Assembly: GCA_963680875.1 (NCBI GenBank)
Contig: OY804586.1
Coordinates: 51,866,203 to 51,930,202, forward strand
Length of the DNA stretch: 64,000 bases
Origin: Bathymodiolus brooksi
Taxonomy: Eukaryota > Mollusca > Bivalvia > Mytilida > Modiolidae
Direction: 5' to 3'
Shown: positions 28,611 to 58,498 of the stretch, in pieces
Layout: each line of letters opens with the position of its first letter
Position numbering within the stretch: position 1 is the first letter of the stretch
The notes under the pieces: model-generated
The model's database searches: none
The model's input: the letters and a program-made list of their open reading frames with translations, nothing else
What the model was told of the DNA's origin: nothing
Made by a program: the position numbers and the translations under genes

Positions 28611-30543
28611 ATCATGGTCGTGATCGTTGATTTATTGTTAGTTACTTAACATCTATGGACCATCATGGTCTTGATCGTCGATTTATTGTTAGTTACTTAA
28701 CATCTATGGACCACCATGGTCGTGATCGTTGATTTATTGTTAGTTACTTAACATCTATCGACCATCATGGTCTTGATCGTTGATTTATTGTTAGTTACTT
28801 AACATCTATGGACCACCATGGTCGTGATCGTTGATTTATTGTTAGTTACTTAACATCTATGGACCATCATGGTCGTGATCGTTGATTTATTGTTAGTTAT
28901 TTAACATCTATGGACCATCATGGTCTTGATCGTTGATTTATTGTTAGTTTCTTAACATCTATGGACCATCATGGTCGTGATCGTTGATTTATTGTTAGTT
29001 ATTTAACATCTATCGACCATCATGGTGGTGATCGTTGATTTATTGTTAGTTACTTAACATCTATGGACCATCATGGTCTTGATCGTTGATTTATTGTTAG
29101 TTACTTAACATCTATGAACCACCATGGTCGTGATCGTTGATTTATTGTTAGCTACTTAACATCTATGGACCATCATGATCTTGATCGTTGATTTATTGTT
29201 AGTTACTTAACATCTATGGACCATCATGGTATTGATCGTTGATTTATTGTTAGTTACTTAACATCTATGGACCATCATGGTCGTGATCGTTGATTTATTG
29301 TTAGTTACTTAACATCTATGGACCATCATGATCTTGATCGTTGATTTATTGTTAGTTACTTAACATCTATGGACCATCATGATCTTGATCGTTGATTTAT
29401 TGTTAGTTACTTAACATCTATGGACCATCATGGTCGTGATCGTTGATTTATTGTTAGTTACTTAACATCTATGGACCACCATGGTCGTGATCGTTGATTT
29501 ATTGTTAGTTACTTAACATCTATGGACCATCATGATCTTGATCGTTGATTTATTGTTAGTTACTTAACATCTATTGACCATCATGGTCGTCATCGTTGAT
29601 TTATTGTTAGTTACTTAACATCTATCGACCATCATGGTCGTGATCGTTGATTTATTGTTCGTTACTTAACATCTATTGACCATCATGGTCGTGATCGTTG
29701 ATTTATTGTTAGTTACTTAACATCTATGGACCATCATGGTCTTGATCGTTGATTTATTGTTAGTTACTTAACATCTATGGACCACCATGGTCTTGATCGT
29801 TGATTTATTGTTAGCTACTTAACATCTATGGACCATCATGGTGGTGATCGTTGATTTATTGTTAGTTTCTTAACATCTATTGACCATCATGGTCGTGATC
29901 GTTGATTTATTGTTAGTTACTTAACATCTATGGACCATCATGGTCTTGATCGTTGATTTATTGTTAGTAACTTAACATCTATGGACCATCATGGTGGTGA
30001 TCGTTGATTTATTGTTAGTTACTTAACATCTATGGACCACCATGGTCGTGATCGTTGATTTATTGTTAGTTACTTAACATCTATGGACCATCATGATCTT
30101 GATCGTTGATTTATTGTTAGTTATTTAACATCTATGGACCATCATGGTCGTGATCGTTGATTTATTGTTAGTTATTTAACATCTATGGACCATCATGATC
30201 TTGATCGTTGATTTATTGTTAGTTATTTAACATCTATGGACCATCATGATCTTGATCGTTGATTTATTGTTAGTTATTTAACATCTATGGACCATCATGG
30301 TCGTGATCGTTGATTTATTGTTAGTTACTTAACATCTATGGACCATCATGATCTTGATCGTTGATTTATTGTTAGTTATTTAACATCTATGGACCATCAT
30401 GATCTTGATCGTTGATTTATTGTTAGTTATTTAACATCTATGGACCATCATGGTCGTGATCGTTGATTTATTGTTAGTTACCTAACATCTATTGACCATC
30501 ATGGTCGTGATCGTTGATTTATTGTTAGTTACTTAACATCTAT

Positions 30544-30800
30544 GGACCATCATGGTCTTGATCGTTTGGTAGCTGTGCTGTGCAATCAGTGTCTACCACT
30601 ACTAAGATTGTGCGTTCGAGTCCCGCTCGTGACGTGGTGTACTCGATACAATATTTTTTATAAAGTTTGTCAGTTTATTGCGGCAGGTCGGTGTTTTTCT
30701 CTGGTTACTCTGGTTTCCTCGACAAATAAAACGGACCTCCACGATATAGTCGAAATATTGTTGAAAATGGCGTCAAACACCATTACCCTAACCCCTAACT
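30544..30800 (+). mobile_element. tRNA-headed SINE, family S1, whose 5' head is also part of the satellite unit
   Basis: Starts with the last satellite segment (GACCATCATGGTCTTGATCG) and continues as an S1 SINE: an A-box-like TGGTAGCTGTGC, a B-box-like GTTCGAGTCC at 30,614-30,623, the body (GTACTCGATACAA, AAAGTTTGTCAG, TTTCCTCGACAAATAAAACG) and the family 3' end CCACGATATAG...GAAATATTGTTGAAAATGGCG. It ends in CCCTAACCCCTAAC, resembling a degenerate telomere-like tail. Other S1 copies in the window (rc of 34,236-34,439; 50,905-51,145) start with a related head, so the head belongs to the SINE as well as to the satellite. No clear target-site duplication was found. A short ORF across the junction is incidental. 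Confidence 0.85.
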
Positions 30801-31256
30801 GAGCGTCTAGCTGAAACTATCTAATGCATGCTCAGTACCAGAACAAGTTGAACAATCGGAATGGGACAACAGGGGCAACGACTGATAACTGCCACTGGTA
30901 AAGTATGACAGTTGTCATGACAACAGGGGAAACCACTGGTGAATGCCACTGGCAACGTATGACAGTAGTTGTCATATATTTTCGCATAGGTCATACTATG
31001 ATGACACACGATTTTATTTCAAATTACGAGCAACGACCTGAGTGCACTTTTTATTCCATACAACGTAACTGGTTTATTCTGTAGATAAATGTTCGTGAAA
31101 ATCCGACTAACATTATATACCTCCGGCCCTTTCGATGGTTTATTTACAAATGACACAGTGGATGCACACGTTTTTCTTATTTTTTTTTAAGAATTCGTTT
31201 GTTTATACAATATAGATTTGTGCTATATTTCTAATCTTTTGTTTTTTAATATAGTG
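30801..31256. repeat. Non-genic interval with a two-copy imperfect repeat of about 54 bp
   Basis: Two adjacent imperfect units, about 30,872-30,925 and 30,926-30,980, share the pattern GGGG(C/A)AA(C/A)...TGCCACTGG..A..GTATGACAGT. The embedded TGACAGTTGTCATGACAAC is partly palindromic. The rest is AT-rich and shows no recognisable gene. The short minus-strand ORF over it is judged to be chance. Confidence 0.5.
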
Positions 31257-32130
31257 AAACCTGTACATGTGGTCACCTGTATTAAGCAGTCACCTCTATT
31301 TAGCAGTCACCGGTATTAAGCAGTCACCTCTATTAAGTAGTCACCTCTATTAAGCAGTCACCTGTATTAAGCAGTCATCTGTATTAAGCAGTCACCTGTA
31401 TTAAGCAGTCACATGTATTAAGCAGTCACCTCTATTAAGCAGTCACATGTATTAAGCAGTCACCTGTATTAAGCAGTCACCTCCATTAAGCAGTCACCTC
31501 TATTAAGCAGTTACCTCTATTAAGCGGCCACCTGTATTAAGCAGTCACCTCTATTAAGCAGTCACCTCTATTAAACAGTCACCTGTATTAAGCAGTCACC
31601 TGTATTAAGCAGTCACATCTATTAAGCAGTCACCTCTATTAAATAGTCACCTGTATTAAGCAATCACCTGTATTAAGCAGTCACCTCTATTAAGCAGTCA
31701 CCTCTATTAAGCAGTCACCTTTATTAAGCAGTCACCTGTATTAAGCAGTCACATGTATTAAGCAGTCACCTCTATTAAGCAGTCACATGTATTAAGCAGT
31801 CACCTGTATTAAGCAGTCACCTCCATTAAGCAGTCACCTCTATTAAGCAGTTACCTCTATTAAGCGGCCACCTGTATTAAGCAGTCACCTCTATTAAGCA
31901 GTCACCTCTATTAAACAGTCACCTGTATTAAGCAGTCACCTGTATTAAGCAGTCACATCTATTAAGCAGTCACCTCTATTAAATAGTCACCTGTATTAAG
32001 CAGTCATCTGTATTAAGCAGTCACCTCTATTAAGCAGTCACCTCTATTAAGCAGTCACCTTTATTAAGCAGTCACCTGTATTAAGCAGTCACCTCTATTA
32101 AGCAGTCACCTGTATTAAAAAGTCACCTTT
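31257..32130. repeat. 17-bp minisatellite (CACCTSTATTAAGCAGT)n with a 340-bp higher-order repeat
   Basis: About 50 copies of a 17-bp unit, mainly CACCTGTATTAAGCAGT or CACCTCTATTAAGCAGT. The distinctive TAAGCGGCCA variant occurs at 31,521 and 31,861, exactly 340 bp (20 units) apart, and neighbouring variants (CACCTCC, GTTACC, TTAAACAGT, TTAAATAGT) repeat in the same order, so a 20-unit segment was duplicated. The array starts after GTGAAACCTGTACATGTGGT and fades into degenerate units (32,131-32,230). 'GTGAAACCT...ATTAAGCGG.CACC' resembles terminal motifs of some DNA transposons, so the array may have expanded from a transposon end. That origin is speculative. Confidence 0.93.
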
Positions 32131-34154: not shown

Positions 34155-34566
34155 GCTGAACGTCATTGATACATCAACGACCGGTAACTCTGGTATATCA
34201 GAGATTGACGTCGTCTATTGGATCTGTTGAATATGTTTGTTTGTTTGTTTGATGGTGCTTAACGCCATCAACAATATTTCAGCTATATCGTGTCGCAAGT
34301 CACTGACAAACTTTATCACATAATGTTGTACACCTCGTCCTGATCGAGATTCGAATTCACAACATCAGTGGTGATAGGTACTGATTGCATAGGTATTTGT
34401 AAATCCAACTACAGTACGATCATGGCCACGATGGCCCCCTCTGTTGAATATGACTGAAGATTTAATTTTGTTGATATTGGTAGAATTGTTGAACATCATT
34501 GTTAGAGCAAGGAACGGTAACTCTGGTATTTCAGAGATTGACGTCTCTATTGGATCTGTTGAATGT
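34155..34566. repeat. Direct repeat pair of about 80 bp (34,155-34,233 and 34,487-34,566)
   Basis: Both copies read GAACRTCATTG..A...CAA.GA.CGGTAACTCTGGTAT.TCAGAGATTGACGTC and then CTATTGGATCTGTTGAAT. The S1 SINE at 34,236 is inserted just after the first copy, so the copies were closer together before that insertion. No coding function is evident. Confidence 0.75.
34236..34439 (-). mobile_element. SINE family S1 with 13-bp target-site duplication
   Basis: Flanked by perfect TCTGTTGAATATG copies at 34,223-34,235 and 34,440-34,452. Read on the minus strand it begins GGGGCCATCGTGGCCATGAT, has a tRNA-like A-box region GTAGTTGGATTTAC, a B-box region GAATTCGAATCTCGATCAG, then AACATTATGTGATAAAGTTT and ACGATATAGCTGAAATATTG, and ends in an AAAC repeat (TTTGTTTGTTTGTTT on the plus strand). 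The middle segment carrying GGTTTCCTCC in other S1 copies is absent here. It is a clear retroposition event and the best local reference for the S1 5' head. Confidence 0.93.
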
Positions 34567-36758: not shown

Positions 36759-37506
36759 ATGTCTGAGCACGGAGACGAAGTTTTTCAGAGTGATTCTAGA
36801 CAAGGTGAGCACCCAGCCCCCGCGTTAAGCCAGGATACTCCGAGTCAACAAAATCAGCCTAAACAAGATTTAGTAGATACTTTTGACTTGTTTAAGACAT
36901 ATCTTGACCATAAATTGCATGATTTGAAATCCGATATTATTTCGGAACAGGAAAATTTGTCTTTGAAAGTTAAGGAGCAAGTTAACTTAAAATTTAAAAG
37001 TGAAGGCAATAAAATCCAATTCAGATTTAACGAGGAAATAGCCGCTGATTTAGCAAAATTGCAAAAGCATTGTACCTCTAGTGTCAATAATGCTTTGGTT
37101 ACTGATATTTGTGACAAGCTGATTCTACATAGCAGACACCTCAGCTGGGGGTTGGGCCACCGTTCGCGAATACGAGCAAAATGAAATTGCGGACAACTCA
37201 GATGACGAAAAAAGAATTCGCCAGGCTGAAAACAGAGCCATTAAACATATTAAGGATGAAGGAAAGATTCACACTACCCCGTATAGTAGATATTCAACAC
37301 CCGCTAGATCAGAAACTCGTCCTAATCCAAATTCTAATTATGTGCGCAGTTCTACTCCTCAGCCGCCCTTTCGTATCGGCTTTGCACGGCGTGAGCCGTG
37401 CCCCTGGGATGTGTGTTTCCACTGTAAAAGTATGGGACATTGGAGAAAAAACTGTTCGCTCCTCAACAGAGCCAGCCAGAATTCAACTACAACATATACT
37501 AAATGA
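36759..37506 (+). pseudogene. gag: DIRS gag (ORF1), frameshifted, with CCHC zinc knuckle
   Basis: Putative nucleocapsid protein of the DIRS element. The ATG at 36,759 (MSEHGDEVFQSDS...) opens a reading frame including a lysine-rich segment with KFKSEGNKIQFRFNEEI, a pattern I associate with DIRS Gag. That frame runs on out of register to a stop at 37,184. From about 37,123 the coding signal shifts to another frame, giving IADTSAGGWATVREYEQNE and a retroviral-type zinc knuckle C-F-H-C-K-S-M-G-H-W-R-K-N-C (CX2CX4HX4C) at about 37,400-37,460, ending at TGA 37,504-37,506. The switch at about 37,116-37,131 is consistent with a small deletion. The upstream in-frame ATG at 36,621 adds residues without recognisable similarity, so 36,759 is preferred. 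Confidence 0.8.
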
Positions 37507-39547
37507 GGCGCCTAATTTATCTGCAGATACTGTTAATGATAAGTATTTTATTGATTGTAATTTCTTTAACTGTTATGAGAACAATGTTACCGAATTTGAG
37601 ATTTTTTCTGAACAAGTTAATTACTTTGAAAACAGCAAATTACATGGTAGCTTTAAAGGTGTTAAAGGTAACTTGAAAAAACACATACAGTATTGGAAAG
37701 ATATTGGAGCAAATGAATTTATATTAGGTACTATTTCTGAAGGATATGTTATTCCTTTTAGCAGTAATCCACCCAGCATGTGTTTTAAAAATAATAGGTC
37801 TGCTTTTCAAAATCATGACTTTGTAGACACAGCTATTGCTGAATTAGTAGATAATGGTTGTGCAATTAAAGTGCCCTTCAAGCCATATGTTGTAAGTTCC
37901 TTAAGTGTAGCAACACAAAAATCTGGCAAGAAACGCTTAATTTTAGATTTGAGTGTCTTAAATAAATTTGTTCGTAAGGACAAGTTTAAGTATGAAGACT
38001 GGAAAGTGGCTATTCAACTGTTTGGCCAAAATTGTTACATGTACAAGTTCGACTTAAAGTCGGGGTACCATCATTTTGATATTTGTACTAAACAACAGAC
38101 ATATTTAGGCTTCTCGTGGAAAGGTAATTTTTATTGTTTCACTGTTTTACCATTTGGGTTGCTCTCCTCCCCTTTTTTATTCACGAAATGTTTGAGAGCC
38201 ATGGTTAAATACTGGAGATCTAAAGCTGTAAATATTGTATTGTACTTGGATGATGGTTTAGGTATGAGCTTAGATTACGATTCTTGTTTCAAAGATTCAT
38301 TCTTCATTAGAAAATCCTTAACTGAAGCTGGTTTTTTGATTAATGTTGATAAATCAGTTTTTACACCTGCTCAATCAATTGAGTGGCTTGGTATAATATG
38401 GGATTCAGTGAATTTTTCATTGCAAATCCCGGATAGACGGGTACAGGATTTGATAGAATCTGTGAGTCTAATATTGTCCGAATTCCCTTTGATCACTGCC
38501 CGTAACCTAGCTCAGGTAACAGGTAAAATTATATCAATGTCACCTGTAATTGGAAACATTTCAAGATTGATGACCCGCTATTGTTACATGATCATTGAAA
38601 CGAGGTCAGCTTGGGACAGTTTACTAGAAATTATTCATTCAGATCAGGTCAAGGCCGAATTAGTGTTTTGGCAAGAAAACATAGTAAAGTTGAATCGAAA
38701 GTATTTAGCAGGTTATAGTTGCTCATCTGTAGTAATCTATTCAGATGCTAGTGATATCGCTGCTGGTGCTTGTACTGTAGAATTGAAATCAAACAATTTT
38801 CATACAATGTGGAACTCGGTTGAAAAAGTTCAGAGTTCAACCTGGCGTGAGATGAAAGCTATTGAGCTTGCTTTAAGTTCGTTTAAAGATCAATTTCAAG
38901 GTAAAACAATTAAATGGTTTACAGATAACCAAAATTGTGTTAAAATTGTCAAATCAGGTAGCATGAAATTAGAACTGCAGAAGTTAGCTAGAAGCATATA
39001 TTCCACTTGTGTTACAAATTCTATTTCTATAGACATTCAGTGGATTCCACGATCTGAAAATGAAAAGGCTGATTATATAAGTAGATTAATTGATCATGAG
39101 GATTGGGAAGTATCTGGAAAAATTTTTGATTCGATGAATGGCCTCTGGGGCCCTTTCACTATAGATCGCTTTGCTAATTTTAATAATAAGAAATTAAATA
39201 GATATAATTCTTTGTATTGGAATCCTGGATCGGAAGCCATAGATGCATTTTCTCAAAACTGGCAATTTGAAAATAATTGGCTAGTACCACCAGTGTTTTC
39301 AGTGCTTAGAGTTATAAAGCACTTGCTTTTCTGTAAAGCGAGAGGTACCTTAATTGTACCTAAATGGATTTCTGCTCCTTACTGGCCATACATTTTTGAT
39401 GAGAACTTATGTTATAGAACGTATGTATCTGATGTTTTAGAATTTAAGAATACAGCTGGTATATTTGTACCAGGTACAAATCCTAATTCCATTTTTGGAA
39501 AGGAACCATTTATTACGCCGGTGTTGGCAGTAAAATTTCAATTTTGA
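37181..39547 (+). CDS. pol: DIRS pol: reverse transcriptase, RNase H and DIRS C-terminal domain
   Basis: Open frame of 788 codons. Residues 1 to about 100 overlap gag in another frame and probably are not native protein; recognisable Pol begins near LQHILNEAPN. RT motifs are KKRLILDLSVLN, DLKSGYHHFDI (Asp291), VLPFGLLSSPFLFTK and the catalytic YLDDGLG (residues 355-361). RNase H follows, with Asp522 in IYSDASD, Glu557 in WREMKAIEL, Asp582 in WFTDNQN and Asp631 in EKADYISRL, a complete D-E-D-D set. After it comes a region with DAFSQNW (from Asp688), NNWLVPPVFSVLRVIKHL and GTLIVPKWISAPYWP, conserved in DIRS elements and often called methyltransferase-like. No stop or frameshift was noticed, so this ORF could encode an active RT although the element is otherwise broken. 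The real start, possibly by frameshift or reinitiation within gag, is unresolved. Confidence 0.93.
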   Translation: MKLRTTQMTKKEFARLKTEPLNILRMKERFTLPRIVDIQHPLDQKLVLIQILIMCAVLLLSRPFVSALHGVSRAPGMCVSTVKVWDIGEKTVRSSTEPARIQLQHILNEAPNLSADTVNDKYFIDCNFFNCYENNVTEFEIFSEQVNYFENSKLHGSFKGVKGNLKKHIQYWKDIGANEFILGTISEGYVIPFSSNPPSMCFKNNRSAFQNHDFVDTAIAELVDNGCAIKVPFKPYVVSSLSVATQKSGKKRLILDLSVLNKFVRKDKFKYEDWKVAIQLFGQNCYMYKFDLKSGYHHFDICTKQQTYLGFSWKGNFYCFTVLPFGLLSSPFLFTKCLRAMVKYWRSKAVNIVLYLDDGLGMSLDYDSCFKDSFFIRKSLTEAGFLINVDKSVFTPAQSIEWLGIIWDSVNFSLQIPDRRVQDLIESVSLILSEFPLITARNLAQVTGKIISMSPVIGNISRLMTRYCYMIIETRSAWDSLLEIIHSDQVKAELVFWQENIVKLNRKYLAGYSCSSVVIYSDASDIAAGACTVELKSNNFHTMWNSVEKVQSSTWREMKAIELALSSFKDQFQGKTIKWFTDNQNCVKIVKSGSMKLELQKLARSIYSTCVTNSISIDIQWIPRSENEKADYISRLIDHEDWEVSGKIFDSMNGLWGPFTIDRFANFNNKKLNRYNSLYWNPGSEAIDAFSQNWQFENNWLVPPVFSVLRVIKHLLFCKARGTLIVPKWISAPYWPYIFDENLCYRTYVSDVLEFKNTAGIFVPGTNPNSIFGKEPFITPVLAVKFQF

Positions 39548-40104
39548 AATTTGTTTTGGCAGATATTCTTAAAGTTATAATTTTGTTTACATTGATGGTA
39601 ATGTTCATTTATGCGTTTTTGCATGGTCATAATGTAGCACAGAGTTTGGCATGGCCCTAATTTCTCGTGGCATGGCCGGAATCTTTTTTGAAGAATGGCA
39701 TGGCCTATCAAAATAAAGGTATGTTCGAAACATGAAAAATTTTATACATATTTATTATACTTTTTAGTAGAATTTTCTTTTTGACACGGCCCTGGCCTAA
39801 ATAGTGGGGCATGGTCGGAACAGCTTGTTTTGTGACTGTTCGGAACATGTTGAAATTGACATGACCCTATTACATAGCGGCATGTTTGGAAAATGTGAAA
39901 TTGGACATGGCCCTAGTATTATTTTATTAATATTGTAGTGGCAAAGTCGATATGGATATGCAGTTGCAATATCTAGCATTATATTTAATTTGAGATAATT
40001 GTTTGTATATATGTTTACGATGAATAGCATGAATTCAGCGTGTTAATTTCAAAATTGAATGAATGATTTTTATAAGTTTTTCATTTGTTAATACAATTTT
40101 CAGC
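39548..40104 (+). other. Non-coding spacer in place of the recombinase N-terminus; GGCATGGCC-rich, possible intron 3' part
   Basis: An intact DIRS element should encode the N-terminal half of the recombinase here. Instead there are irregular copies of GGCATGGCC-like words (for example TTTGGCATGGCCCTAA, GTGGCATGGCCGGAA, GGACATGGCCCTAG) separated by AT-rich sequence and no open frame. A donor-like AAAGGTATGT is at about 39,716 and an acceptor-like TTAATACAATTTTCAG ends near 40,104, just before recombinase coding sequence. A relic intron or replacement by foreign repeat sequence are both possible; neither is proven. Confidence 0.45.
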
Positions 40105-40488
40105 CATTTTTCAATTTGGGAGATGGAAGGACTTGTCAAAAGATACTTCAAGTTTATCTGGTGGTTTGAAGGTAGTAATGACTACATTTTTAGACCTATC
40201 AGTTACTGTAGTAAATCCAAAACTTATAGATTACGTAAAAGTGGTATTTTATCTTATACTACAGCTAGGGAAATACTGTTATCTGCTTTAAGTAGTATTG
40301 GTTTAGAAAAATCTATGTATTGCCTACATAGTTTACGGTCAGGTGGCGCTACAGCAGCAGCTAGCGCAGGAGTTGACGATAGACTTTTCAAAAAACACGG
40401 ACGATGGAAAAGTGATAGTGCTAAAGATGGTTATGTCAAAGAAAGTATTTCTAATAGAATGACAGTTTCTAAACAGCTCGGTTTGTAA
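40063..40488 (+). pseudogene. DIRS tyrosine recombinase, C-terminal catalytic half only
   Basis: The 141-codon frame has genuine recombinase similarity from about residue 25 (GLVKRYFKF, SNDYIFRPISY, TYRLRKSGILSYTTAREILL). Catalytic features are H89-S-L-R92 in LHSLRSGGATAAASAGV, H112 and W115 in HGRWKSDSAKDGY, and nucleophile Tyr124. This is the H-x-x-R...H/W...Y set of tyrosine recombinases as found in DIRS elements. The first catalytic Arg and the core-binding domain, expected upstream, are missing, so the protein is truncated and should be inactive unless a spliced upstream exon exists. Confidence 0.88.
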
Positions 40489-40811: not shown

Positions 40812-40903
40812 AGATTCGAACTCCCAACATCAGTGGTGATAGGTATTGATTGCATAGGTAGTAGTAAATCCAACTACCACACGATCACGGCTGCGACGGC
40901 CCC
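40812..40903 (-). mobile_element. SINE S1 fragment (5' head and tRNA-like region)
   Basis: On the minus strand it begins GGGGCCGTCGCAGCCGTGAT, then CGTGTGGTAGTTGGATTTAC, a region with ATCAATACCTATCACCACTG and the B-box-like GAGTTCGAATCT. The 3' two-thirds of the family is missing. Its head supports the idea that the satellite motif 'ACC.TC..GG.CGTGATCG' is SINE-derived. Confidence 0.82.
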
Positions 40904-41045: not shown

Positions 41046-42941
41046 GGCCGTATATCATGTCCGCCAATTTTAGAATATTCCTGTTACTCTTTTCCGCCAG
41101 TAAATGATATATCTTTTCCGCCAATTGATTAAATTACCTGTACTGTAATTAATAACTTACTTTAACACAGGTGAGTCTTTCTTGTTCTACACTCTTCAGT
41201 GGTAAATATTTGGTGAGTATTCGCTCATATCAAATTTAGAACATTCAAGTTCAGAGAGTTTTAACAATGGTTCTCAGTTCAGTAGGTGCGAACAGTTGGA
41301 AAGCCTTGCATCATGGATATTATACATACAGAGACGAACTGTGGTAAGAAATCTATAATATACTATGGATATTCCTACAGAAAAGTTAATTCTTTAAAAA
41401 ATAGAGATGTTGTTTTTCGGTGCAGTACCGGAAAATCCTGCAAAGCTACCGTAACCACAGATGAAAAAGGAGTTGCAGTCGTGAAAATGAAAAATGAACA
41501 TAATTATGAAAGTTACGAGAAAAATGTTGAAGTGAAACAACTCCGCGTACGTATAAGGAAACAATCCGGGGACATAACCTCACGTCCGAGTAAAATCATC
41601 CGTCAAGAAATACAGATCCAGGGAGAAAATTTACTAAAGACAAATGATTTAAGAAATCTGGCACAGTCACTATTCCGAGAACGCCGCAAAGATCTACCGA
41701 AATTGCCTAAAAACAGAGGGGATGTTCATAATGCTCTTGATGTTCTGGATTTGAATACAAACAAAGACGAGCGTTTTATGGCTAGAAATTCTAGGGAAAC
41801 AGGCATTGTGATCTTTACGTGTGTTACAAATCTGAAATGTCTTTCCGACCAAATCAAAGACATTTTTATCGACGGCACGTTTAAATGTTGCCCTAAATTC
41901 TTCCTCCAATTATATACCATACATGGATGTGAAAATGGGAATTATGTTCCATTGGTGTTTGTGTTACTGCCATCAAAGACTGAGATATGCTATGATCAGA
42001 TGTGGTATATGTTCCATTATATGTGTAGAGAGAGAGAGGTCTAGTATTTTCTCCAGAGACAGTACATATTGATTTTGAAATGGCTATGCATAACTCTGTC
42101 CGTCGCAACTTCAGACAAGCGAATAGTCCATGCTGCCGTTTTCACTTGGGCCAAAGTATGTGGCGTAAGATACAGACCATTGGATTTAGTGCACAGTACA
42201 GAGACAAAGATTCAGAGATTGGGAAATGGTTGACTCTGTTTTATGGTCTCCCCTATCTGGCTGCAGAGGAGATAGAAGATTGCGTTGTTATGGATATTAT
42301 GTCTAGCGAGCCAGACGATGCAATCTGTCATCAATTTGCAGACTACATGTTAGGAAATTACGTGTCTTCTGATGCAAGATACCCCCTCAGCTTTGGGCAG
42401 ATATTCCACGGGAAAGAAGTAAACGAACAACAAACGGACCAGAAGCATTCCACTCACATTTCAACGGACAATTTTATTCCACCCACCCCAGTAGCTTTAC
42501 CTTCATTGATGTAATCACCAAAATGCAGACGACAACTTAAAATGAGATGCCTGAATGTCGATGCTGCACTGCGAAAACCAGAAAAAGAGAGAATTAGTTT
42601 TCTCCTTCGACAGTTTGAAATGTATTCAGTTGGTGAACTCAACCTGTTTCAGTACATCAAATCCATTGGATTCAAATATGCTGCTCGCACCGACCTGTAA
42701 ATACTTTTAACGTTTTTAGTGATGTTACTGTTTTAACAATATTCAGTGCTGTTTTAACTGTACAAAAGACTATTAAAGACTTATATTGCTTAGAATCCTA
42801 CTTCCACCTCCCCGTGGTAAGCAAGAGGCAACAGGTAATTTACCTGGCTAACGGAAATGATGTATAATTTCTAGCGGAAAAGAGTTTTTTTTTTTTTTTT
42901 TCGCGGAAAAGAGTATCCGATTCGCGGAAATGTAAAACGGC
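41046..42941 (+). mobile_element. MULE (Mutator-like) DNA transposon, complete but inactivated, 1,896 bp
   Basis: Flanked by perfect 9-bp target duplications GAGCGTACC at 41,037-41,045 and 42,942-42,950, the size typical of Mutator-like elements. The terminal inverted repeats are long and imperfect: left GCCGTATATCATGTCCGCC, right (rc) GCCGTTTTACATTTCCGCG, followed on both sides by TACTCTTTTCCGC and further inward by a TTTCCG-containing copy and AATTACCTGT, giving about 100 bp of TIR. A T17 tract within the right TIR (minus strand A17) is a later expansion. Inside lies one transposase pseudogene on the plus strand. Confidence 0.93.
41286..42700 (+). pseudogene. FLYWCH-MULE transposase pseudogene with at least three frameshifts
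   Basis: The N-terminus has a FLYWCH-type zinc finger (GYSYRKVN...CSTGKSCKATV...MKNEHNY) with C46, C52 and H72; the expected fourth ligand is Tyr74 instead of His. The MULE transposase core follows: IFIDGTFKCCPKFF (catalytic Asp196) and GNYVPLVFVLLP. A GA-dinucleotide run at about 42,026-42,039 precedes a stop at 42,044. Coding resumes in another frame with FSPETVHIDFEMAMHNSV (second Asp near 42,071), CRFHLGQSMWRK and KDSEIGKWL. Near 42,425 it shifts again (EAFHSHFNGQFY, FIDVITKM) and from about 42,540 once more (MRCLNVDAALRK...YIKSIGFKYAARTDL), ending at 42,700. It cannot encode an intact transposase. Start at 41,286 or the in-frame ATG at 41,313 is uncertain. Confidence 0.92.
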
Positions 42942-47825: not shown

Positions 47826-50573
47826 ATGAAACCAGGAAGCTTACTCGAACCACGAATATAAATAACACATGATCCCAGGAAGTTTACTCGAACCATGAAA
47901 ATAAAGAACCCACGATACCAGGAAACTTACTCGAATCACGAATATGAAGAACCCTCGATACCAGGAAGCTTACTCGAACAAGGAAAATAAAGAACGCCCG
48001 ATACCAGGCAGTTTACTCGAACCATGAATATAAAGAACCCCCGATACCAGGAAGTTTACTCGAACCACGAATATAAAGAACACCCGATACCAGGAAGCTT
48101 ACTCGAACCACATATAAAGAACCCCTGATACCAGGAAGCTTAGACGAACCAGGAATATACAAAAACACGATACCAAGAAGCTTACTCAACCAGGAATATA
48201 AAGAACCCACGATACCAGGAAGTTTACTCGAACCACGAATATAAAGAACCCACGATACCAGGAAGTTTACTCGAACCACAAAAAAAAAGAACCCACGATA
48301 CCAGGAAGTTTACTCGAACCACGAATATAAAGAACACACGATCCCAGGAAGTTTGCTCGAACCACGAATATAAAGAACCCACGAAAACATGAAACTTACT
48401 CGAACCACGAATATAAAGAACGCCCGATACCAGGAAATTTACTCGAACCACGAATAAAAAGAACCCATGATACCGGGAAGTTTACTCGAACCACGAATAT
48501 AAAGAACCCACGATCCTATCAAGCTTATTCGAACCACTAATATAAAGAACCCACGATACCAGCAAGCTTACTCGAACCACGAATATAAAGAAGCCACGAT
48601 ACCAGGACGTTTACTCGAATCATGAATATAAAGAACCCACGATCCCATCAAGCTTGCTGGAACCAGGAATATAAAGAACCCACGATACAAGGAAGTTTAC
48701 TCGAACCAGGAATATAAAGAACTTACAATACCAGCAATCTTACTCGAACCACGAATATAAAGAACCCACGATCCTATCAAGCTTATTCGAACCACTAATA
48801 TAAAGAACCCACGATACCAGCAAGCTTACTCGAACCACGAATATAAAGAAGCCACGATACCAGGACGTTTACTCGAATCATGAATATAAAGAACCCACGA
48901 TCCCATCAAGCTTGCTGGAACCAGGAATATAAAGAACCCACGATACAAGGAAGTTTACTCGAACCAGGAATATAAAGAACTTACAATACCAGCAATCTTA
49001 CTCGAACCACGAATATAAAGAATCCGCGATACCAGGAAATTTACTCGAACAACGAATATAAAGAACCCACGACACCATGAGGCTTACTCGAACCACGAAT
49101 ATAAAGAACCCACGATGCCAGAAAGTTTATTCGAACCACGAATAAAAAGAACCCACGATACCAGGAAGTTACTCGAACCACGAATATAAAGAACCCACGA
49201 TACCATGAAGCTTACTCGAACCACGAATATAAAGAACTCCCGATACAAGAAAATTTACTCGAACCACGAATATAAAGAACCCACGATCCCATTGAAGCTT
49301 ACTCGAACCACGAATGCAAAGAACCCACGATGCCATGAGGCTTACTCAAACCACGAATATAAAGAACCCACGATCCCAGGAAGTTTGGTCGAACCACGAA
49401 TGCAAGGAACCCACGATGCCATGAGGCTTACTCAAACCACGAATATAAAGAACCCACGGTACCAGGAAGTTTACTCCAACCACGAATATAAAGAACCCAC
49501 GATCCTATCAAGCTTACTCGAACCACGAATATAAAGAACCCACGATACCAGGAAACTTACTCGAACCACGAATATAAAGAACCTACGATACCAGGACGTT
49601 TACTCGAATCATGAATATAAAGAACCCATGATCCCATCAAGCTTGCTGGAACCAGGAATATAAAGAACTCACAATACCAGCAAGCTTACTCGAACCACGA
49701 ATATAAAGAACCCGAGATACCAGGAAAATTACTCGAACAACGAATATAAAGAACACACGACACCGTGAGGCTTACTCAAACCACGAAATATAAAGAACCC
49801 ACGATGCCAGAAAGCTTACTCGAACCACGAAGAAAAAGAACCCACGATACCAGGAAGTTACTCGAACAACGAATATAAAGAACCCACGATACCATGAAGC
49901 TTACTCGAACCACGAATATAAAGAACTCCCGATACAAGAAAATTTACTCGAACCACGAATATAAAGAACCCACGATACCAGGGAGTTTATTCGAATCATG
50001 GATATAGATAACCCACGATCCCATTGAAGCTTACTCGAACCACGAATGCAAAGAACCCACGATGCCATGAGGCTTACTCATGCCACGAATATAAAGAACC
50101 CACGATACCATGAAGATGACTCGAACCACGAAAATAAAGAACCCACGATACCAGGAAGTTTACTCGAACCACGAATATAAAGAATCCACAATACCATACA
50201 GTTTACTCGAATAACGAACATGAAGAGCCCGCGATCCTATGAAGTGTAGTCGACCCACGAATATAAAGAACCCACGATCCCATGAAGTTTACTCGAACCA
50301 AGTATATAAAGAATCCACAATCCCATAAAGTCTACTCGAGCCACGAATATAAAGAACCCACGATACCAGGAAGTTTACTCGAACCACGAATATAAAGAAA
50401 CCACGATCACAGGAAGCTTACTCGAGCCACAAATATAATGAACCCAAGATCCCACGAAGTTTACTCAAACCACAAAAATAAAGATCCCACGATCCCAGGA
50501 AGTTTGCTCGAACCACGAATATAAAAGAACCCACCATACCATGAAATCGAACTACGAATATAAAGAACCCACT
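47826..50573. repeat. 43-bp satellite/minisatellite array (about 64 units)
   Basis: The unit is CGAACCACGAATATAAAGAA, then CCCACGATACCAGGAAGTTT, then ACT (43 bp). Starts at 48,018 and 48,061 show the period. Units vary at several sites (AAGCTT/AAGTTT, GATACC/GATCCC, occasional losses of 1-7 bp). A six-unit segment is duplicated: the GATCCTATCAAGCTTATTCG variant near 48,512 recurs 258 bp later near 48,770, followed by identical neighbours. Since 43 is not a multiple of 3, three units give 43 codons and long spurious ORFs appear on both strands (48,013-48,451 minus, 49,205-49,534 plus). More divergent than the 51-bp array, so probably older or less homogenised. Confidence 0.95.
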
Positions 50574-52379: not shown

Positions 52380-52598
52380 TCATGCATAAAATGTAATTAT
52401 ATTGAAGGTCACACAGAAACTGGGGCATTCGTTTTCTCTCTCCTGACATATTAATAAGAAAATTACTGCGCAGAAGAAATTCAACATCAAAATATCGTAT
52501 TCATTAAAGCTTGTTTTATTTATTTTAATTGCTACAGTACATATCTTTATAATTAATAAAATACTAGTACACATAAATCATCTTTGATTATTAACACC

Positions 52599-52950
52599 GC
52601 GTCGATGCTGTAATTGTTAGACTGCGGTAGATCGTGGATTCGATCCCCGGTCGGGTCAAACCAAAGACTATGAAATTGGTATTTGCTGCTTCTGCGCTAA
52701 GCATGCAGCATCAAGGAGAAACAGCAACGACTGGTTGGCTAGGAGTCAGGATAATGTGTCTGCGTGATGCGACATGTCTATCCACGGACTGTTGTTTCAG
52801 TCAACTAGCACTATAAAAATCCAACTCAGCGTCTTGATCTAGTACAAATCGGACATCATCATCATCATTTCATTGAAAATTAACTTGTATTCGCCATGAG
52901 ATAGCTGAACAATTGATAATTTGGCGTTTAACAACACTCACTCACTCATT
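52599..52950 (+). mobile_element. SINE family S2, full length (duplication copy 1)
   Basis: Head GCGTCGATGCTGTAATTGTT, B-box GGATTCGATCCCC, body GGTCAAACCAAAGACTATGA, CTGCGCTAAGCATGCAGCAT, TTGGCTAGGAGTCAGGATAA and GTTTCAGTCAACTAGCAC, 3' end GAGATAGCTGAACAATTGAT then GTTTAACAACACTCACTCAC. The 60-codon ORF on it is a SINE artefact. Confidence 0.9.
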
Positions 52951-53449: not shown

Positions 53450-53581
53450 TTTGTTATGTTATACTCAATACATGCAAATCTGTCAGACGACATGTTTTTG
53501 TTATCGTATATCTAAGACAAAAACGGGTTCGGACAAATCCGGAAGAAAACATTATATTGATCGGGCCCGGTCCATATTATA

Positions 53582-53724
53582 CAATTACTGCACTTGAACG
53601 AGATCAATATGAGGTTTTATGAAGCAGAGTACAACAATATTGAACTCGACTTTGCCTCGTTCAATATTGTTGTACTCTGCTCCATTAAACCTCATATTGA
53701 TCAAGTTCAAGTTTAGTAATTGTT
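53582..53724. repeat. Hairpin C: inverted repeat, arms about 64 bp, 13-nt loop
   Basis: Left arm CAATTACTGCACTTGAACGA, ATCAATATGAGGTTTTATGA, GCAGAGTACAACAATATTGA; right arm TCAATATTGTTGTACTCTGC, TCCATTAAACCTCATATTGA, TCAAGTTCAAGTTTAGTAATTG (shown in overlapping short parts). The loop is about ACTCGACTTTGCCTCGT. It is the longest hairpin in the window. Confidence 0.92.
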
Positions 53725-53734
53725 TTATTACATA

Positions 53735-56160: not shown

Positions 56161-56293
56161 CTGCGCAGAAGAAATTCAACATCAAAATATCGTATTCATT
56201 AAAGCTTGTTTTATTTATTTTAATTGCTACAGTACATATCTTTATAATTAATAAAATACTAGTACACATAAATCATCTTTGATTATTAACACC

Positions 56294-56645
56294 GCGTCGA
56301 TGCTGTAATTGTTAGACTGCGGTAGATCGTGGATTCGATCCCCGGTCGGGTCAAACCAAAGACTATGAAATTGGTATTTGCTGTTTCTGCGCTAAGCATG
56401 CAGCATCAAGGAGAAACAGCAACGACTGGTTGGCTAGGAGTCAGGATAATGTGTCTGCGTGATGCGACATGTCTATCCACGGACTGTTGTTTCAGTCAAC
56501 TAGCACTATAAAAATCCAACTCAGCGTCTTGATCTAGTACAAATCGGACATCATCATCATCATTTCATTGAAAATTAACTTGTATTCGCCATGAGATAGC
56601 TGAACAATTGATAATTTGGCGTTTAACAACACTCACTCACTCATT
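56294..56645 (+). mobile_element. SINE family S2 (duplication copy 2)
   Basis: Duplicate of the S2 element at 52,599, offset 3,695 bp, with one substitution at 56,384. Confidence 0.9.
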
Positions 56646-56766: not shown

Positions 56767-57419
56767 TGATTGATACCGCAAATATCAGCCTGTTGAGCCA
56801 GAATATGAAGTTTGTTGGCGAGTGAGCGAAGCGAACTAGTCACAAACATCATATTCTGTCGAGCAGGCCTATATTTTTTAGTATCAATCATATTTACATT
56901 CAGATGACATATTTATCATCCTTAAATCAAACATACACATGGATATATGGTACATTTATAGGTTTCGATATTTGTATTTTCGCGGGATATATCACATAAT
57001 TATCAAATAATTCATGGCACTAAGGGCCATATGACAGTTTATGGACCGGGATGTCACCCACAAAATAGTATATGGACCGAAGCGAATTTTGTGGGTGACA
57101 GACTGGTCCATAAACTGTCATTTGGCCGGAAGTGCCGTGAAATATTTGTTATGTTATACTCAATACATGCAAATCTGTCAGACGACATGTTTTTGTTATC
57201 GTATATCTAAGACAAAAACGGGTTCGGACAAATCCGGAAGAAAACATTATATTGATCGGGCCCGGTCCATATTATACAATTACTGCACTTGAACGAGATC
57301 AATATGAGGTTTTATGAAGCAGAGTACAACAATATTGAACTCGACTTTGCCTCGTTCAATATTGTTGTACTCTGCTCCATTAAACCTCATATTGATCAAG
57401 TTCAAGTTTAGTAATTGTT
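56767..57419. repeat. Hairpins A, B and C in duplication copy 2
   Basis: Hairpin A 56,767-56,890, hairpin B 57,009-57,144, hairpin C 57,277-57,419; identical by eye to those of copy 1. Confidence 0.9.
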
Positions 57420-58498
57420 TTATTACATAAGATTCTTGAAAATTTTGAACTTTTATGAAATTTTTGAAATTTTTTGAAAATTTTTAAATTATGAAATTAT
57501 GAAATATTTATAAAATTTTGAAATTTTCAGAAAATTTTGAAATTTTTAAAAAATTTTGAAATTTTATGAAATTTTTGAAATTTTTTGAAATTTTTATTTT
57601 TTTTTATTTTTGACTTTTTATTTTTGTATATTGTATGGGTGTTACTAAATGAGAGGGTGACAGTAATTTCATTCATTGATTTTGCATGAGAGTGCAATAT
57701 GATTTTCTATTGCACAGAAATTGCTTTTTGCTAACCAATATGTTAGAAAATGGAATGTTACGTGTATTGCTTCTGGCCAATAGAAAAACAGTAAAATAGA
57801 GCCTTATGTAATAATTCAAATTATTTCATCATTTTAAAGCTATTTACCAATTTCCAAAACATATAATTTTTTGGGTCAAAATCGTAGCTAATGCCTCTTT
57901 AACAAAATATACATAGTTCAAAGACAATGATTTAATATAATGAAAATTAAATGATCCACTCATTTTCATTAGCGGTTTTGTTTACCAATTCCGTTCCGGT
58001 TTAGAAAGCACAAACTTCACGACCTTGACGATGACGTAAGAAAACGTATCCCCCAGTAGAGGTTATCAAGAATTGTTTAAAGTACATTTTTGTAGAATGA
58101 TGTTTGTTGATATTGCTGACACGGCAGTTCTTAATTAAATATATGTTTTAAAAAATGAAATGTTTACTACCTAATGGTGTTGATGAATTTTATTTACTTT
58201 TGTCATCTTCACAGTAATTATTGCTTAAATGTTGGGAGAATTTGGTGATAACTCCTGCTGGCTGTTGATAAGTCCTGCTCAACTCACGCGGACTTTGATA
58301 CGAGTTTTGCTTATGGAGTCAGCAGGTAGATATAGCGAGAGGGAAGGATGATAATATTAATTGCTGGCGATTGGGAGGTTCAGGAGGAGTTGGGATACCT
58401 TTATTTGTTTATTAAATAATCGAGTTCAGAGAAATTTCTTTGTTGAAGGCTTCAAAGGTGAATTGATTTGTGTGAATATGCTTCGGGGTTTTTGCTAT

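Follow-up and report, generated by a model that had tools for sequence, protein, structure and literature searches.

A 51-bp satellite at essentially one locus in Bathymodiolus brooksi, very probably amplified from the left edge of an old SINE

The window analysed here is a stretch of 64,000 nucleotides from Bathymodiolus brooksi (C15:51,866,203-51,930,202). The assembly comprises 2.00 Gb in 136 contigs, and 16 of the 20 contigs probed (C1-C20) are chromosome-sized, at 86-176 Mb. Nearly half of the window is occupied by a tandem array of a 51-bp satellite. As had been noted, the array passes without a gap into a SINE at 30,544: the body of the element directly abuts the last unit, which ends at C15:51,896,766 (window 30,564, or 30,566 including a shared TT). 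The features needed for the argument are as follows.

1-30566, + strand: right end (30.6 kb) of the array of 51-bp satellite units, which extends leftward outside the window to C15:51,589,165 (from TRF)
30514-30543, + strand: last copy of the non-SINE piece of the unit (TTGATTTATTG...ATCTAT), with relatives on C2 and C8 in a dispersed repeat, R
30544-30565, + strand: SINE head of 22 bp common to the satellite unit and the SINE (from head alignments)
30544-30797 (3' limit approximate), + strand: junction SINE, the likely parent (from consensus alignment)
30815-30856, + strand: putative right-hand half of an interrupted R, continuing the 29-bp piece (from BLAST, shuffles and tiles)
34223-34452, - strand: independent SINE copy with 13-bp target duplications at 34223-34235 and 34440-34452 (from a duplication search)
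40812-40903, - strand: 5' part of a second independent SINE, with head (from window alignments)

The array had been put at 30 kb, which is too short because the window edge cuts it. In the C15 sequence outside the window it can be followed over C15:51,589,165-51,896,766, about 307.6 kb, or some 6,000 units of 51 bp. Within the window, TRF gives 599.4 copies at 1-30,566, and 598 units, 99 of them distinct, can be counted leftward from the GGACC at 30,544. For the array as a whole, seven pieces totalling 128 kb were read and about 180 kb is unread. The 2,496 units in these pieces run on one strand throughout with 14 one-base slips; they include 360 distinct units and diverge from the array consensus by 3.0% on average. 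The first and last complete units are both identical to that consensus. In the window, one-base-short units form two pairs, 9,025 bp from each other, and the members of each pair lie 1,070 bp apart, which suggests that blocks of units have been copied together.

The 29-bp piece of the unit can be used to search the whole genome (2.0 Gb, at most 3 mismatches). This search returns 5,996 forward matches and no reverse matches, and a reversed control returns none. Because the pieces read project to 5,986 matches for the one array, the satellite is essentially single-locus and nearly confined to C15. Only two of the matches listed lie on C1-C14, as the order of the list implies, and no second array of the 51-bp unit is among them; C16 and later contigs are outside the list, and a short array there is possible. 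Viral contigs contain no match to the unit. The array lies about 48% along the 106.8-Mb C15, a position that by itself is no proof of a centromeric satellite for a unit essentially confined to this contig.

We also considered a functional role for GACCATCATGGTC, which forms a perfect dyad of 13 bp in the consensus of the unit (window 30545-30557 and other units), and rejected it; no constraint is claimed. Its six pairs are broken in 0.4-10% of units, the commonest variants alter one side only and show no compensating changes, and the dyad is imperfect in the majority head of the SINE.

Several other features lie to the right of the array. Two further local arrays have units of 17 bp (31272-32128) and 43 bp (47831-50572), neither with a SINE match. 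On the + strand, a reverse-transcriptase ORF (37133-39547; RVT_1, E 3.6e-16) is followed by a second ORF (40063-40488) without a Pfam match, which we take from its motif to be a tyrosine recombinase, so that the pair would presumably belong to a DIRS-like retroelement. An HDV-F-prausnitzii ribozyme match in Rfam, here in animal DNA, is found at 42785-42858 (+; 48 bits, with the gathering score at 44; E 4.8e-6), about 270 bp past an ORF at 42029-42514 that itself comes after a FLYWCH ORF. A direct duplication (52466-52765 and 56161-56460, 100% over a 300-nt reference) has a spacing of 3,695 bp, and several further repeat families in the region show this spacing too. Both copies of this duplication include inverted repeats (53576-53728 and 57271-57423) with 70-nt arms, 89% complementary and 13 nt apart; the Rfam match to MIR9560 is far below the gathering score.

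A consensus typed from the window copies of the SINE gives 67 matches in 132.6 kb of C15 flanks. With the junction copy excluded, 27 C15 matches begin at or before consensus position 25 (two being one duplicated pair), and 18 begin within the first 11 positions. The junction SINE itself differs from a consensus by 40 mismatches in 250 aligned positions, or 16%. It includes TGGTAGCTGTG at 30567-30577, which we take to be A box-like, and GTTCGAGTCCC at 30614-30624, presumably box B-like. A search for a tRNA-like head gave no tRNA with ARAGORN and no tRNA match up to E 1 in Rfam. The TCCGGGTACTCCGGTTTCCTCC stretch is, we assume, akin to the V domain of mollusc V-SINE / RUDI, and a literature search with the V-domain string gave no match.

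Target site duplications, a criterion for tRNA-derived SINEs, are present at the 34,236 copy (13 bp, perfect) and the 59,848 copy (11 bp), and the first of these sets the 5' end of the SINE at GGGGGCCATCG. On C1 one head reads GGGGGCCGTCGTGGTCGTGATCGTATG (L054). Because 18 C15 matches other than the junction copy reach the first 11 positions of the 22-bp head and the 13-bp duplication delimits one copy, the alignments assign the head to the SINE and not to the array; the expectation that the 5' end of the SINE carries the motif is thereby borne out. At the junction SINE no target duplication was found (shuffle P 0.56 and 0.37 in two tests), and a duplication made of satellite sequence, named in the original prediction as a sign that the SINE had jumped into an existing array, was looked for with the same outcome. 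The missing duplication weighs little because only 3 of the 16 two-ended SINE copies show one at P <=0.05. The left flank of the array and the 3' flank of the SINE were also compared, with nothing matching.

Copies of this animal SINE also turn up inside contigs filed under bacterial symbionts (L001-L005: Thioglobus, Campylobacterota, Thiodubiliella). They start at consensus positions 1, 9 and 18 in L002, L001 and L003, respectively, and a 3' part of the SINE lies in L005, whose title mentions the mussel Bathymodiolus septemdierum. Host contamination is the likely source. The SINE tail has no matches in viral contigs.

The head can next be compared between array and SINE. The head of the 34,236 copy is identical to that of the array at 18 of 22 positions, as had been stated, and three of the four mismatches are indeed of the G/A or C/T type; shuffled units (20,000, compared in 102 registers apiece) never scored above 15. 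Ungapped matches of other window copies to the array head are 15-16 of 22 (40,812), 14 of 22 (51,717) and 3 of 22 (61,811). A majority head built from C15 matches without the junction copy agrees with G-variant units at 19 of 22 positions and with T-variant units at 18, and two of the three differences left for the G-variant units are changes from CpG to CpA. At the three positions where the array departs, the SINE majority is G (11 of 12, 9 of 13 and 18 of 18 C15 copies), whereas A is found in 2,455, 2,489 and 2,399 of the 2,496 array units.

The junction SINE head equals the array consensus, with three departures from the SINE majority that are common to nearly all units. This fits an array seeded from a junction copy that may already have been mutated; the pattern would look no different if the array had homogenised its last head. 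The T/G site of the array reads G in 14 of 19 SINE copies on C15. At unit position 45 the SINE majority is G and both terminal units have T, with 1,365 T against 1,122 G among the 2,496 units read; this could reflect a parent with T followed by reversion in the array, or else homogenisation of the ends.

The other part of the unit had been described as about 29 bp of DNA upstream of the SINE. These bases are in the unit as stated, but they are not plain flank. The piece is also found on C2 and C8, with 3 mismatches each, and because these two places share a 71-bp stretch at 88.7% identity, we regard it as belonging, on this homology, to a dispersed repeat rather than to unique DNA. We define this repeat, R, from the two other genomic copies (C2, C8; L059, L060). 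Homology to R begins at most 4 bases from the left boundary of the array. After the 29-bp piece, R continues with CAGCAAATATTTCATGCATATT...GAACAAGTT, and similar sequence is found beyond the SINE, with about 15 bp unaligned between the SINE tail and the candidate right half of R. The first BLAST gave E-values of 0.25 (71% over 42 bp) and 0.88 for the two copies. Shuffle and tile tests were run after these weak matches had appeared: the score was reached in 0 of 2,000 shuffles for L059 and 1 of 2,000 for L060, while neither score occurred among 5,404 tiles taken from the surrounding DNA. The case for this presumed right half rests on its position and on these later tests.

Because R-like sequence flanks the SINE on both sides, a copy of R was probably broken by the SINE, and the array occupies the left of the two joins. 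If so, an intact R is expected to read ...AACATCYAT into CAGCAAATATTTCATGC. R itself probably represents the 3' end of a retroelement in antisense, since its end, on the opposite strand, resembles the 3' end of the SINE (shuffle P 0.003), and an AATC-type tail is present in L059.

The two ends of the array can also be compared with each other. The left end starts with the 29-bp non-SINE piece, reading ...CATAACGTTAA, then TTGATTTATTG...ATCTATGGACC...GATCG, and then the second unit; the right end reads ...GATCGTT, then TGGTAGC. Both ends thus fall at the same unit boundary, with a 2-bp overlap, TT. The shared phase and the TT are what an expanded tandem duplication of a 51-bp stretch predicts, and agreement of independent ends is expected in only about 3 of 51 cases. 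Inspection of the far end had been proposed, and its phase is as amplification of 29 bp plus SINE head predicts.

Our preferred explanation, which we hold with high confidence, is that the satellite originated where it now lies, when the left edge of one old SINE was amplified in tandem. Each unit would consist of 29 bp related to R and the first 22 bp of the SINE, which likely interrupted R. The original prediction (about 29 bp of upstream sequence plus the first 22 or so of the SINE, amplified, with the parent still attached at the right) is supported in this respect by the phase, the continuation of R and the head match. From the anatomy of the locus, the order of events may be reconstructed. 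A SINE would have inserted into a copy of R and then decayed, to its present 16% from the consensus. A 51-bp tandem duplication would have formed at the TT microhomology, through slippage or end joining. The array could then have grown to some 6,000 units by unequal exchange or by rolling-circle reinsertion, and the same processes would have homogenised the units, which are now 3% from their consensus. We also lean, with less assurance, towards a further claim: that the entire satellite unit is a chimera of two retroelements, with the 3' end of R in antisense joined to the 5' head of the SINE, and that every trace of its origin survives (the flank on the left, some 6,000 units, the body of the SINE and the second half of R).

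In such an amplification the SINE may be a driver or a passenger. It could drive the birth of satellites, for example by Pol III transcription or 5' self-priming. The unit does end at the SINE 5' edge, just short of the stretch that we take to be A box-like. A junction copy that looks decayed, at 16%, speaks against a driver, as do the other arrays: 30 unit sequences from the other local arrays, with several TRF rows for each array, include no match to the SINE, and we reject the SINE as a general cause of local arrays. Five 10-kb stretches were picked arbitrarily on other chromosomes, and tandem repeats dominate three of them, the units being 112 bp, 2,144 bp (each unit with a SINE) and 47 bp (L056, L057 and L058 on C8, C12 and C18), and two of these three have no SINE match. 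The genome seems very rich in arrays. From the density of SINE 5' ends (19 matches per 132.6 kb, junction copy included), a random 51-bp unit has a chance of about 0.7% of straddling one, and an array-rich genome will encounter such events. The SINE is probably a passenger because the unit stops short of the Pol III box-like motifs and large arrays without the SINE head occur in other sampled parts of the genome. Different SINE families have yielded satellites repeatedly in squamates, according to excerpts of PMC10702118, which would suit a driver; we nevertheless consider that role unlikely here.

There are two ways in which the array might be older than its present junction. It could have formed elsewhere, from the edge of another SINE, and been joined to this one by recombination within the 22-bp head. 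A crossover there would give the identity of array and junction heads at every position, and the T of the junction head at unit position 45 is not the SINE majority. We nonetheless think this quite improbable: on the left the array begins with the 29-bp piece and not within the SINE head, the other half of R lies to the right of the junction SINE itself, and no source array is among the matches listed. Least probable of all is that the SINE retroposed into or beside a pre-existing 51-bp array and that the head likeness came by chance or later conversion; the lack of a visible target duplication (possible at an array edge) and a last head equal to the array consensus would suit it, but independent SINE copies own the head at their 5' ends, 20,000 shuffles did not reach the match, TRF found no satellite right of the SINE, R-like sequence occurs on both of its sides and both array ends are in one phase.

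Amplification in place can be compared with known systems. Armour et al. in 1989 reportedly described human minisatellites next to Alu and other dispersed repeats; to judge from a title and a table row, the likeness lies in the association of tandem arrays with dispersed elements, Alu among them. Further tandem repeats derived from transposable elements are tabled in a review (PMC9659126, in part). That satellites can be seeded by SINEs, as the original prediction stated, is documented in squamates (excerpts of PMC10702118) and for the limpet PcH-sat (excerpts of PMC11121367). The squamate SINE-derived satellites, or sSats, of Vassetzky et al. 2023 have tandem units derived from part of a SINE, and, in the excerpts of that paper, most arrays close with a longer unit that reaches the SINE terminus, as here, so that a preserved parental junction is less unusual than had been supposed; longer arrays show greater homogeneity, and in one gecko variant the 5' part of a SINE is joined to about 30 nt whose origin is not known (PMC10702118). 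At our locus, too, the unit includes a SINE portion found as independent copies, the terminal unit runs on into the remaining SINE (right end, window 30,544), and the long array is homogenised (2,496 units, mean 3.0% from consensus). The squamate sSats occupy many loci per genome, with units of about 70-290 nt and up to nearly 950 units per locus (excerpts of PMC10702118), whereas here there is one locus (5,996 matches against 5,986 projected for one array, unlike the many loci of snakes and geckos), a 51-bp unit, about 6,000 units and a non-SINE part traced to a likely interrupted R. The number of loci varies among sSats and is thus no condition of membership, on the same excerpts (PMC10702118).

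PcH-sat of the gastropod limpet Patella caerulea (Petraccioli et al. 2024) matches a tRNA-type Nin-SINE over 118 of its 179 bp and is without the SINE A and B boxes, much as the 51-bp unit stops short of the box-like motifs of its SINE; it differs in deriving from the 3' part of the SINE and in lying near the centromeres of five chromosome pairs, and the excerpts of PMC11121367 describe no parental junction. Literature searches on 51-bp bivalve, microhomology, nested-insertion and junction satellites found no closer precedent than PMC10702118 and PMC11121367. As far as the literature was searched, the kind of satellite is already known, and the novelty lies in its chimeric unit, in its restriction to a single locus of 307 kb and in a context from before the insertion that can still be read.

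A single assembly shows both boundaries of a 307-kb array together with its likely parent and the likely context before insertion, and the order of events (R, then SINE, decay and amplification) thereby becomes testable in relatives. The test of phase and paralogy used here can be applied to any fully assembled array. A satellite that matches a SINE need not be SINE-driven. If the satellite is indeed a chimera of two retroelements, the joins left by nested insertions would be a recognisable birthplace of large single-locus satellites.
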